Positions 34,900 through 59,517 of a stretch of 64,000 nt of DNA are shown piece by piece (within the stretch, counting starts at the first letter, position 1; every line of letters starts with the position of its first letter). Source of the stretch: Sulfobacillus thermosulfidooxidans (lineage in GTDB: Bacteria > Bacillota > Sulfobacillia > Sulfobacillales > Sulfobacillaceae); assembly GCF_001280565.1 (NCBI RefSeq), contig NZ_LGRO01000001.1, positions 1,054,001 to 1,118,000 of the forward strand. The letters are read 5' to 3'. A program made the translations under genes and the position numbers. The notes under the pieces were generated by a model that was given only the letters and a program-made list of their open reading frames with translations, was not told the origin of the DNA and searched no databases.

Positions 34900-36693
34900 T
34901 TAGCGTTTGAGTAAGTTGAGCGTATTGGTATTATCATCCGTATAATAGACTAATAAGTCGCCACTATCATCTACAGCAATAGCAATGCCAAATAAGGCGG
35001 ATCCTTGACCCGTCACCGGATTTACCGGTGTAGGGTCCAAGGTTTTTCGTGACATGACGCGTCCTGTTCGTGGATTTAGTTCGATGGCTTCGTTGTTGCC
35101 TTGGTTTACCGCGACAAGATGCCCATTTTCCGGATTTAATGCCAGTCCGGCCGGTTTATTTAACGGAGCGCCATGATAAACGGTTAACCCATTGTTCAGA
35201 TCAGATGAGGTCGTCGTGGCGGGTGACAAAGCGCTAATACGGCTATCCGCTCCATTGGCCACGTACAGGACGTCACCCATGGGAAGCCACACGAGTCCTT
35301 GAGGGCCGAAAACCGTTGAAATGGTTGTGCCAACATGGGCAAATCCTGACCCGATTTGCCGAACCACGGTATCTCCATTAAAATTGGACGGGTGAAAGTG
35401 CGTCATTCTATCAATGGTACCCGTAAGCACATTGGTTGAAAAGAAGGCGGGAGCGAGGCCGTAAAATTCCCCAAAATTGAACTGCATGCCCCAGGGTCCA
35501 GCAAACAGCGGGCGCCGGATATTCCCTCCACTAAACAAGGTCCCGTTGGGGGTAATGACCTGGACCACTCCGTCGGAACCGTTAGGATTCAAGCCGTAAT
35601 CGGCAATCCAGGGTGGACCTAAATTGCTGATAGCGACAGCAATAGGGGATTTCGCCTCCCCGAAAAATCGTTGAGGTTGGCCATTCACGATACGTTCTAT
35701 CGTCGTTCCTAATCCCATAACTCCAGACGCATTGTTAATGTTTGAAACCACCAAGTCGCCGTGTTTTAGAACGGTATTCGTGTCATCGAAGGTGTATGGC
35801 GCAATGGTAATTGCGTAAGGATTATTGTCGTGGTTAATGGGATCAATGGTGGAAGAAATTTCGACAATGGTATTCAATGTACTGATGAGAGAGCGGGGAC
35901 GCTCATCAGATGAATACCAAAAAACCCGGTTGGTTATACCTAATGCATGAAAGGTTTGGGGACCAGCAATCCCGTCGACCGTAATTCCGGCAACCTTTTG
36001 GAAGGATTTGACAGCGTCTTGGGTTTTTTGACCATAATATCCGTCAATGCGTCCGCGATAAAACGCCAGATTTTTCAGAATAACTTGTAATCCAGCGGTA
36101 TCAAATCCATTCCTTCCCTCAAGCAAATTGCGACCGCCAGTGAACGCCGAAATCCATAGAATATTGAAAGTCGAGGCATCGACTGTTCCATCAAAGGGTA
36201 ATGTCCAATGACGATAGGTGAGATTATCGCCTTGAAAAGCCAGGACACCTTGTTGTGTATGATTGCCAAATAGCCCATCAGCCGGCGCAGATAATTTCTC
36301 CGCGTACCACAGACAATTTAGACGGTTTTGCAGAACCGTCACATCACCGCCTTGGTCACCAAGACCAAGAGGGCGACTGCCAAATGCCGGGCCGCCATAA
36401 GCTTTGGTGTCTTGGCCTAACACGTTATAAGTTTGTGGACCGATAATGCCGTCTTGGCCAATGCCAAAATAGCTTTGAACATTTAACACGGCTTGGTGAG
36501 TTTCTGGACCAAAGATTCCGTCAATGAGAATTCGTGAACCCATAGGGCCCAGGGGCGGATTCATCAGTTCTAACATGGTGTCGTAAATCCGTTGAAAAAC
36601 TTTCACATCGGTGCCCCGAATATTGGGCACTTCGAACCGGAGCGTCCGCGATCCGAACGCATACTCCGGCAAATTGCCTTGAAAATTTGCCAT
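34900..36693 (-). CDS. triple peptidoglycan-binding-domain protein with a C-terminal beta-propeller
   Basis: The ATG at 36693 has TAGGAGGG about 6 bases upstream on the minus strand; the frame stays open to 36864 without another site. The 597-residue product holds three PG_binding_1 domains (about residues 24-95, 105-190 and 195-260), each with a G-x-[FY]-G-x-x-T-x-x-[AG]-[VL] core such as DGIFGPETHQAV and DGYYGQKTQDAV. About 330 residues follow with NHL/SMP-30-like propeller repeats (GPQGLVWLP, KPAGLALNP). No signal peptide is visible, which is odd for a wall-binding protein. It might act in the spore or be exported by a non-Sec route. Confidence 0.75.
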   Translation of the reverse strand: MANFQGNLPEYAFGSRTLRFEVPNIRGTDVKVFQRIYDTMLELMNPPLGPMGSRILIDGIFGPETHQAVLNVQSYFGIGQDGIIGPQTYNVLGQDTKAYGGPAFGSRPLGLGDQGGDVTVLQNRLNCLWYAEKLSAPADGLFGNHTQQGVLAFQGDNLTYRHWTLPFDGTVDASTFNILWISAFTGGRNLLEGRNGFDTAGLQVILKNLAFYRGRIDGYYGQKTQDAVKSFQKVAGITVDGIAGPQTFHALGITNRVFWYSSDERPRSLISTLNTIVEISSTIDPINHDNNPYAITIAPYTFDDTNTVLKHGDLVVSNINNASGVMGLGTTIERIVNGQPQRFFGEAKSPIAVAISNLGPPWIADYGLNPNGSDGVVQVITPNGTLFSGGNIRRPLFAGPWGMQFNFGEFYGLAPAFFSTNVLTGTIDRMTHFHPSNFNGDTVVRQIGSGFAHVGTTISTVFGPQGLVWLPMGDVLYVANGADSRISALSPATTTSSDLNNGLTVYHGAPLNKPAGLALNPENGHLVAVNQGNNEAIELNPRTGRVMSRKTLDPTPVNPVTGQGSALFGIAIAVDDSGDLLVYYTDDNTNTLNLLKR

Positions 36694-36786
36694 CTTTTTC
36701 CCTCCTACTGGAAACATATGCACGATTCGCCAAAAGGTGACTACGACACGTGATGAATAGATCCGGCGAAGAAACGGGCACGACTT

Positions 36787-36820
36787 TGATATACTGGTCA
36801 TAACGTCATAACGGTCATAG
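36787..36820 (+). promoter_or_regulatory. extended -10 promoter followed by three tandem GTCATA repeats
   Basis: TG-A-TATACT (36787-36795) is an extended -10 box. Directly after it come GTCATAAC (36797-36804), GTCATAAC (36805-36812) and GTCATAG (36814-36820), covering the expected transcript start and leader of the Trp-rich protein gene. Tandem copies suggest a regulator site. Confidence 0.5.
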
Positions 36821-36832
36821 GTGGGAGATTCC

Positions 36833-38197
36833 TTGCAATTAATTGCGCAGTTCTCGCCGAACATCTCAACGATTACGCGAGGATTTTGGACAGATGTTCA
36901 GCAAACGGAAGAATGGCTCAGGGGCCTTCAAAAAGATATCACAGCGCGGACCTTACTATTAAAGGGAAAAACCCTGACACAATTGGAGCCATGGCTTCCA
37001 TGGTCTCAGTCCCCCCTCGAGCTGGAGGGTTGGCTGAATCCCATGGAGGTTCAATTAACTTGGCGTTATTTGTTACATTTTTTGGTAGCATCAGGTCCTG
37101 ATAGTCTATTTATCCCGTGCGGGGGCGATGCTTGGATTGCCTGGAATCCACGGACTGTGATTGTCCGGGCTCCCCACAATTCATGGATTTGGTCGCATGT
37201 TATTGATAGTTGGGATCCGGCCGGATGGCGGACACTCGATCAGATTGAATGGTGGGAGCAAGGGCGCCTACAACAAGCGGCTCGGACGGATTTTGGTGTG
37301 TTTGAACAATGGCAGCATCCCTATGGCATGGAGGAATGGCGTATTAATGCGGCAGACAACCATGAACCCATATTACAACTATGGTGGCAACAACTCGCCA
37401 ATCGGTTAGGCACGCGTCCTGTGAAAGTCAGTTGGCGCCAAGAGCAGCTTCATAATCCCAATACTATCTTAGGTCTGCCCGTTCGACTCAGCTGGTTAGG
37501 CCTGAAAATTTCTGGTGATCAATCGCAATTTTGGGACGGAGTCTCTCATTGGCCTGAACCCCGAGGACTACGGGCTACAATGCAGTGGTCGAGTCCCCGT
37601 TGGAATCCATGGTGGTCCACTCAGGTGTCTTTGAAACGGTGGAAACAAGGTACCAGGCTCGAAGCGCATTACACATTAAATTCCAGGCCTCTCACTCGCC
37701 ATGCTGTGAAAATCATGCGCCAAGAAATGCATCATTTTCCAATCTTTCATTTACAGTCCGTAATGACCCCTGATGTTTATGGCGAACGGCATACATGGAT
37801 GTCACTCATGGAACGGGCACGGGCAAGCCGTTGGAAAGAAATGGCCACAGAAAATTTGAAAGGATATTCTTGGCCGCGGTTGTCCGCAATGCGTATTCCT
37901 CGCCGGATACGTTTGGGCTCTTCCTGGATGATTGATAAGCTGAGCTCACATACAGGCGTGTGGACCATTCGCCACCGTACTCTTCCGTTGGCGGTCCAAA
38001 TTCATTGGCCTAGAAAAAATCATGCCGGAAATCTTACGGTGACTTTTCTGAACCAGATTTCGGCAAGCCTTTATGACCTCGATCCTCGCTCAGACATTGA
38101 TCGGTTTTCGTTGAATCGCCGGTATTGGGCATCGGTGATTGTTCACCATATTTTACCGGTGCTTGAGAGGATTTTTAGTTCCGATGATTATCGTTAA
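36833..38197 (+). CDS. tryptophan-rich protein of unknown function
   Basis: The TTG at 36833 has GGTGGGAG (36820-36827) 5 bases upstream and is preferred to the GTG at 36821, which lies within that site. I count 34 tryptophans in about 454 residues, over 7 percent, spread along the whole chain and often paired or next to Pro, His or Glu (W-x-x-W, WW). There is no signal peptide, no membrane helix and no domain I recognise. The pattern suggests many beta strands with Trp-lined surfaces, as in carbohydrate- or lipid-binding folds, but this is a guess. It is divergent from the peptidoglycan-binding protein and converges on the Lon-domain gene. Confidence 0.7.
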   Translation: MQLIAQFSPNISTITRGFWTDVQQTEEWLRGLQKDITARTLLLKGKTLTQLEPWLPWSQSPLELEGWLNPMEVQLTWRYLLHFLVASGPDSLFIPCGGDAWIAWNPRTVIVRAPHNSWIWSHVIDSWDPAGWRTLDQIEWWEQGRLQQAARTDFGVFEQWQHPYGMEEWRINAADNHEPILQLWWQQLANRLGTRPVKVSWRQEQLHNPNTILGLPVRLSWLGLKISGDQSQFWDGVSHWPEPRGLRATMQWSSPRWNPWWSTQVSLKRWKQGTRLEAHYTLNSRPLTRHAVKIMRQEMHHFPIFHLQSVMTPDVYGERHTWMSLMERARASRWKEMATENLKGYSWPRLSAMRIPRRIRLGSSWMIDKLSSHTGVWTIRHRTLPLAVQIHWPRKNHAGNLTVTFLNQISASLYDLDPRSDIDRFSLNRRYWASVIVHHILPVLERIFSSDDYR

Positions 38198-38210: not shown

Positions 38211-38828
38211 CTAACTGGTTTGTTCCGTTCGCATATGATCCATGAGTGATCGTAAAATCGAAACCTCTTTTGCCAATCGCGTTCGGGTTGTACGCAACTC
38301 CAACAATTCTTGTTGGGCTTCTACGGTCAAGGGTACATGGGCAGCAATCCAATAGGATAGTGCCTCTGGTTCAGTCGGTAATTGCGGTCGAGTTCTTTCG
38401 GTGGTGACAAAACTCCAAATTTCAGAACTTAATGCAATGGCTTCGTCAATTAACAACGTGGGTACAGAATCATCTAGGTCGGGAAGATATTTGAATTGAC
38501 CAACCATATACTTATTGCCATGTCGGTATGACAAGAGGCTAATGCGGCTAATCCCTGTGAGTTCGAGGTCTATTGAACCATCTTCGATGTCTTGGGCCTG
38601 TAAAATGCGCGCAGATGTGCCGATGTTAGATGGTTCTATGTCTTGTGACCGATTATCATCGCCCACTCGTTCTTTACAAACGCACAGCGCGGTATCTTGT
38701 TGAATGCAGTAGTTCACCATCAGTTTGTGCGCAGGATCCTGGATCCGCAGCCGGGTTTTCGCGCCCGGAAAAAGAATACCTTTGATTGGTAATATCGGCA
38801 TGCTAATGGTTTCTCGGCTTGCAGGCAT
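38211..38828 (-). CDS. Lon N-terminal-domain (substrate-binding) protein
   Basis: The ATG at 38828 has AGGGGGTGG 4 bases upstream. The 205-residue protein opens with the LON domain pattern MPILPIKGILFPGAKTRLRI (residues 10-29) and VGTSARI-like and DLELTGISRISLLSY strands, ending with a helical bundle and coiled stretch (about 165-205). It has neither ATPase nor protease domain. Stand-alone LON-domain proteins are common and are presumed to bind unfolded protein segments. The gene is single on its strand. A palindrome at 38912-38923 may control it or the neighbouring dehydrogenase. Confidence 0.8.
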   Translation of the reverse strand: MPASRETISMPILPIKGILFPGAKTRLRIQDPAHKLMVNYCIQQDTALCVCKERVGDDNRSQDIEPSNIGTSARILQAQDIEDGSIDLELTGISRISLLSYRHGNKYMVGQFKYLPDLDDSVPTLLIDEAIALSSEIWSFVTTERTRPQLPTEPEALSYWIAAHVPLTVEAQQELLELRTTRTRLAKEVSILRSLMDHMRTEQTS

Positions 38829-38911
38829 GACGCCACCCCCTATAGACCTACCTAATGGACTGGCCACAATCATTTTCCGTATTCCTACGGGTTTACCCAC
38901 TATTTTACCGA

Positions 38912-38923
38912 ATTTCGCGAAAT
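38912..38923. repeat. 12-bp palindrome ATTTCGCGAAAT in a divergent intergenic region
   Basis: The site is perfectly palindromic and lies between the divergent Lon-domain gene (start 38828) and acyl-CoA dehydrogenase gene (start 39092). Its length and position suit a dimeric repressor. A TAAAAT (39051-39056) is the probable -10 of the dehydrogenase gene. Confidence 0.45.
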
Positions 38924-39091
38924 CACACAAAGAAAATCCAGGGGCGTATGATGAAAAACATTCTTACACCGGTGAATGGGTCGAAGACCAAGTAACCCGG
39001 TGACCGCCGGAGATAGCGGGGGCGTTGCCCTTGTAACAGCGAAAACATGCTAAAATAAACTGGAATATTTGGCGGACAGGGGGAGACACCC

Positions 39092-58917: not shown

Positions 58918-59517
58918 GTGAAGGAATTTTGGGTGTTGGGATTGGCATTGCTTGTCGGATTTCAAGGTGGCACGGCGCTATATCAACAAGGACGTATCGG
59001 GCATCATCTTTCTACCGTGATTGCTTGGATTCTCACGTTTATGCTGCTATTTGTCTTGTGGCATACTACAGCGAGTGTATCCCTACAAGGATGGTGGTTT
59101 GCTGCCGGTCTCATCCTGGTGACAAAGGCGGCCATGGACATCCATCAGCATCAAACAGCCAACCGGATCCTGACGGCCACGTGGATAGAACCACTAGAAG
59201 CCTTTGGCACCCTCTTCATGTTGATGGTTGGAACCAGTGATCTGGTGGGAATTTTCGCGGGTTTTCTGGCTGGGCTTGTTCTGCCCTTTGCACTGCAAGA
59301 TTGGTTAAATCCATTGGCCTGGTGGAGTGAAGTTCTTCGCATCGTTAGCTTAGGAGCGGTGGGGCTTGAAGACTTAAGCCGAGCTCTTTGGCCTTTATCA
59401 ATGCCCCCCATTCCCCATGTTTGGTGGATGATTCCCTGGCTCATTTGGTGGGAAATTAGTGATTGGCTTTGGCACGACTTTTCCACAGCATGGCCAGCCA
59501 GGCCACGAAGAGAATAA
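58918..59517 (+). CDS. hypothetical multi-span membrane protein
   Basis: The GTG start lies 9 bases after the GH18 stop with AGAGGAATAG upstream. The 199-residue product has about five hydrophobic segments (about 3-20, 30-52, 57-70, 93-128 and 160-185) and many Trp residues near the C-terminus (WWMIPWLIWW). No family is recognised. It is presumably co-transcribed with the GH18 enzyme. Its last 62 bases overlap the 3' end of the convergent DedA gene on the other strand, an unusually long antisense coding overlap. Confidence 0.62.
   Translation: MKEFWVLGLALLVGFQGGTALYQQGRIGHHLSTVIAWILTFMLLFVLWHTTASVSLQGWWFAAGLILVTKAAMDIHQHQTANRILTATWIEPLEAFGTLFMLMVGTSDLVGIFAGFLAGLVLPFALQDWLNPLAWWSEVLRIVSLGAVGLEDLSRALWPLSMPPIPHVWWMIPWLIWWEISDWLWHDFSTAWPARPRRE

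Follow-up and report, generated by a model that had tools for sequence, protein, structure and literature searches.

The Trp-rich gene and its product

The window, by which we mean the whole 64,000-nucleotide stretch of Sulfobacillus thermosulfidooxidans DNA analysed here, carries on its forward strand a gene for a tryptophan (Trp)-rich protein of 454 residues (36833..38197, +; TTG start), with homologues in 33 of the 154 genomes of the class. The longest open reading frame (ORF) at this place runs from GTG 36821 to 38197 (+) and would encode 458 residues; we take TTG 36833 as the likely start, because the Shine-Dalgarno sequence AGGTGGGAG (36819..36827, +) precedes it and homologues align from that residue. 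The region of this ribosome site is kept in the seven sequences from the window's genus. Farther upstream, TTTGATATACT (36785..36795, +) is a candidate extended -10 promoter element. The pattern TTTGnTATACT was invariant in all seven upstream sequences of the genus and occurred once in the window when both strands were scanned, and the candidate element is of the TGnTATAAT type, which we take to be vegetative. Three spaced GTCATAA/GTCATAG repeats (36797..36821, +), partly conserved in the genus, lie between the candidate element and the ribosome site, and this stretch is a possible operator. Downstream, a convergent gene encodes only a LON substrate-binding domain (38211..38930, -; PF02190, E = 1e-27), while a divergent gene on the other side encodes a peptidoglycan-binding protein of 597 residues (34900..36693, -; PF01471), whose start is probably ATG 36693.

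The preliminary description, made from the sequence alone, had counted 34 Trp in about 454 residues, more than 7% and several times the usual frequency. This count held: from TTG 36833 onwards, 34 of 454 residues are Trp (7.49%), against a mean of 1.90% in the 57 ORFs of the window with 150 or more residues, an excess for which a plain binomial at 1.9%, ignoring over-dispersion between proteins, gives 2.6e-11. The Trp residues had also been described as evenly spread and often arranged as WW or W-x-x-W, neither of which agrees with the counts. Residues 1–270 contain 27 of them and residues 271–454 only 7, and WW and W-x-x-W pairs occur three times each, compared with 2.49 and 2.45 expected under random placement, respectively. 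Only a spacing of 9 was raised among the 11 spacings tested (6 versus 2.4, p = 0.022). With both pair counts at chance level, Trp clustering was dropped as a signal. The absence of a membrane helix, also proposed at the outset, was borne out by hydropathy, the highest 19-residue Kyte-Doolittle mean being 1.48 in 29 full-length family members; hydropathy revealed no signal-like N-terminus either. Coding was confirmed against the genome G003 (97% identical), where dN and dS were 0.018 and 0.47, close to the values of the nearby acyl-CoA dehydrogenase gene (0.014 and 0.59, respectively).

Distribution and conservation of the family

The gene is single-copy in the window genome. A family profile of 30 sequences matched 32 of the 154 class genomes. 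The window's taxonomic family, represented by 34 genomes, accounts for 30 of these; the remaining two, G035 and G036, each come from a further family of that order. A 33rd genome (G037), from another family, came to light when a syntenic stretch was searched with a profile, and the Trp-rich family is confined to one order of the class (33 of 154 genomes). In a sample of the phylum, 3 of 398 genomes matched, all inside the window's taxonomic family. No member was found on plasmids, nor in viral contigs with the patterns used. Sulfobacillus thermotolerans Kr1 (L033) is a named relative that carries the protein.

The 29 full-length members have 441–469 residues and 5.5–8.3% Trp, a content kept at identities to the window protein as low as 24%, and a soluble family with this property is an unusual structural case. 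The proteins of G036 and G037 are shorter (416 residues; 6.2 and 6.5% Trp, respectively) and match the profile only partly (E of about 5e-10 and 6e-9). Among the full-length members, 20 Trp columns are at least 85% conserved; 25 columns of the alignment are invariant, including 9 Trp. In a control with eight neighbouring gene families, Trp was likewise better conserved than other residues. Since its conservation there is similar, the unusual feature of the family is the number of its Trp residues rather than their conservation. Overall, the protein represents a real, order-restricted, soluble orphan family.

Sequence searches and predicted structure

The initial reading had recognised no known domain, and the databases agreed with it. 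The window protein had no Pfam match up to E = 10. When 30 members were scanned, the best E values were 0.011 in Pfam, 0.012 in NCBIfam and 0.01 in PHROGs, none of them beyond the cut-off or usable, and PADLOC gave no match; a profile search of PDB sequences reached 0.1 at best, again without a usable match. The weak scores for DUF1045 (0.011) and TIGR03223 (0.012) were taken as chance. Profile comparison of parts of the protein showed no internal repeats.

A structure-based search, proposed earlier as a check, was run and gave no significant fold match. The full-length AlphaFold2 model from five sequences was poor (pLDDT 57.2, pTM 0.39), with best scores of E = 9.2e-3 in Foldseek and Z = 5.8 in VIA. 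Residues 58–205, also modelled from five sequences, gave a fair model (pLDDT 71.3, pTM 0.67) with the order a-bbb-a-bbbb-a and no significant fold match (best Foldseek E = 6.6e-3, best VIA Z = 4.8). Weak rows for PsbP, DcrB, Mog1, SciW/EagT6 and BamC recurred in these searches; rows for spermine synthase, TBP and Mediator were treated as noise. The likeness of the modelled residues 58–205 to PsbP/Mog1/DcrB-type domains may be a hint and gives no assignment. Although weak fold matches to PsbP/Mog1/DcrB/EagR-type domains recur for this part, neither a significant fold match nor a sequence match to them was obtained, and these domains are not known for a high Trp content. The EagT6 and SciW structures are, by their entry titles, bound to effector membrane segments.

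Gene neighbourhood and linkage to PrkA

The downstream gene order is conserved. In the 16 loci read, the LON-only gene adjoins the Trp-rich gene in 15 (the exception being G013), an AsnRS gene lies downstream in 15, and genes for acyl-CoA dehydrogenase, a RodZ-like protein and D-Ala carboxypeptidase follow in most. The divergent peptidoglycan-binding gene, from which a role of both proteins in the envelope or spore had been suggested, is indeed present in the window but stands outside this conserved setting: it adjoins the family gene in only 2 of the 30 loci with flanks, those of the window genome (G000) and G003. The envelope inference falls for this reason, while the spore side of the suggestion gains some support, with clear exceptions, from a linkage to PrkA in 18 of 22 loci.

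The PrkA-SpoVR-DUF444 module includes PrkA and SpoVR in Bacillus subtilis and YeaG, YcgB and YeaH in Escherichia coli. In the literature, the genes for PrkA, SpoVR and DUF444 are described as co-occurring in many microbes (PMC3102087), prkA of Rhizobium etli as the first gene of a three-gene operon, followed by von Willebrand-type and SpoVR-like genes (PMC3188799), and the YcgB, YeaH and YeaG triplet as co-conserved across enterobacteria and Pseudomonas (PMC2375023). Normal sporulation and osmotic stress survival of Bacillus anthracis need PrkA, the biochemistry of which is disputed: B. subtilis PrkA has been reported to act weakly as a protease, and no such activity was detected with purified PrkA of B. 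anthracis (PMC13001217). Our literature search found no paper on a Trp-rich protein in Sulfobacillus, nor one on Sulfobacillus sporulation with PrkA.

Outside the window's genus, 18 of the 22 loci of the taxonomic family have PrkA upstream of the Trp-rich gene, on the same strand and within 1.5 kb. The gaps range from 81 to 1435 bp, with ten of them between 81 and 210 bp; PrkA is a fragment in one of these loci (G031), and in another the contig starts inside it (G012). As for the other four loci, two contigs end within 0.6 kb upstream of the Trp-rich gene (G009 and G030), a third ends after 1.1 kb without PrkA (G033), and in the fourth (G011) PrkA is about 2 kb away, with two opposite-strand genes in between. 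Nine linked loci were read further: SpoVR precedes PrkA in eight, DUF444 in seven, and both in seven. The same order, DUF444-SpoVR-PrkA-Trp-rich, with a 623-bp gap, was found in G037, from another family. In the 18 linked loci the Trp-rich gene lies 3' of PrkA on the same strand, but its product is none of the three proteins and matches none of their families, and the module is much more widely spread (PrkA in 77 of the 154 class genomes versus 33 with the Trp-rich protein).

The window's genus departs from this arrangement, all seven loci, the window included, lacking PrkA upstream. In the window genome, the PrkA of the linked-copy clade sits at a distant chromosomal site, together with a SpoVR and a DUF444 gene of its own. 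By a PrkA tree (a single FastTree run, midpoint-rooted, with copies from 15 genomes), G004 has PrkA paralogues only, and the linked PrkA type appears to be missing from five genomes of the genus (G004 by tree; G001, G002, G005 and G006 by score only), all of which keep the Trp-rich protein. We also observed that the window genome has three separate clusters of PrkA with SpoVR and DUF444 (C1 861728, 1361628 and 2692429; L102, L101 and L103, respectively), which fall into distinct PrkA clades.

Across the class, the Trp-rich protein and PrkA do not consistently co-occur. PrkA and the Trp-rich gene are about 138 kb apart in G035. G036, at 97% completeness, has the Trp-rich protein and Spo0A and no match to PrkA or SpoVA; this genome has perhaps stopped making spores. 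In the other direction, at least 44 class genomes have PrkA without the Trp-rich protein. These include the genera g9, g12 and g15, where PrkA is present and the Trp-rich protein was not detected: in g9, which has PrkA, Spo0A and SpoVA, an unrelated membrane-like ORF fills the slot; three g12 genomes carry PrkA and LON on a single contig, with no family match in the interval; and G039 (g12) and G041 (g15) gave no family match. Spo0A or SpoVA was matched in all 42 genomes of the order.

Possible roles of the Trp-rich protein

Tentatively, we propose that the Trp-rich protein is a cytoplasmic, Trp-cored, lineage-specific partner of the PrkA-SpoVR-DUF444 starvation/sporulation module. This is the best specific hypothesis, and an ordinary housekeeping role is about as likely. 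Most likely, the many conserved Trp residues would form the fold core and perhaps also a partner-binding groove, and the protein would serve as a partner or adaptor that binds PrkA, SpoVR or a client protein. The old arrangement would have had the Trp-rich gene directly 3' of a DUF444-SpoVR-PrkA operon, from which it would have been split in the window's genus and placed under its own promoter. The protein may be an unrecognised helper of a widespread starvation/sporulation system, and a dedicated PrkA partner in one lineage would, if true, offer a handle on the module. The vegetative type of the candidate promoter counts against the partnership, as do the separation of the two genes in the window's genus, the lack of a PrkA match in G036 and the genera with PrkA in which the Trp-rich protein was not detected. 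We consider it unlikely that the protein goes as far as being a fourth component of the module, that is, a soluble adaptor with a new fold and an aromatic groove that would present hydrophobic segments of clients to the PrkA AAA+ ATPase.

The housekeeping role, which also falls short of being probable, would make the protein an ordinary cytoplasmic enzyme or factor with structural Trp, its gene order inherited without functional meaning. Because the downstream order is conserved too, the adjacency to PrkA is possibly plain inheritance; the LON-only, acyl-CoA dehydrogenase and AsnRS genes are equally conserved neighbours with no evident tie to PrkA. The persistence of the protein without an adjacent PrkA in the seven genus loci, G035 and G036, the vegetative-type extended -10 element invariant in the genus, and a Trp conservation similar to that of neighbouring gene families point the same way. 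However, the PrkA linkage extends over two families of the order, and no obvious catalytic set is found among the 25 invariant columns, 9 of which are Trp. It is rather improbable that the protein instead acts independently of PrkA and uses an aromatic groove to bind hydrophobic ligands, peptides or lipids, as its high Trp content and the weak matches of residues 58–205 to PsbP, DcrB, Mog1, BamC and EagT6/SciW entries might suggest, none of these matches being significant (Foldseek E = 6.6e-3 and VIA Z = 4.8 at best). Nucleic-acid binding is more doubtful still: an isoelectric point above 8.5 in 24 of the 29 full-length members and the invariant Arg 195, 275 and 360 would suit it, but the isoelectric point is 7.0–7.9 in the other five, and no nucleic-acid-binding family was matched. 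Least probable is an envelope or spore-coat protein, which the peptidoglycan-binding neighbour in the window genome would favour; that neighbour recurs in only 2 of 30 loci, and the protein has neither a signal-like N-terminus nor a membrane segment by hydropathy.

Other Trp-rich proteins

The tryptophan-rich sensory protein TspO, an integral membrane protein, has a Pfam family to itself. It shares the richness in Trp, but the window protein has no membrane segment (highest hydropathy mean 1.48) and no Pfam match, and a Trp-rich membrane protein of the TspO type was rejected on these grounds. The wider literature on Trp-rich proteins held nothing relevant among the matches listed. Two Trp-rich ORFs in the same slot in genus g9 (L088 and L089) were rejected as homologues because they look like membrane proteins and have no match to the family. 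The window itself contains a second Trp-rich ORF (58918-59517, +; 199 residues, 9.05% Trp), directly 3' of a GH18 gene and without a Pfam match. It was rejected as a relative of the 34-Trp protein, being membrane-like and unrelated; it is a conserved window ORF richer in Trp than that protein, with matches in 9 of the 10 relatives searched.
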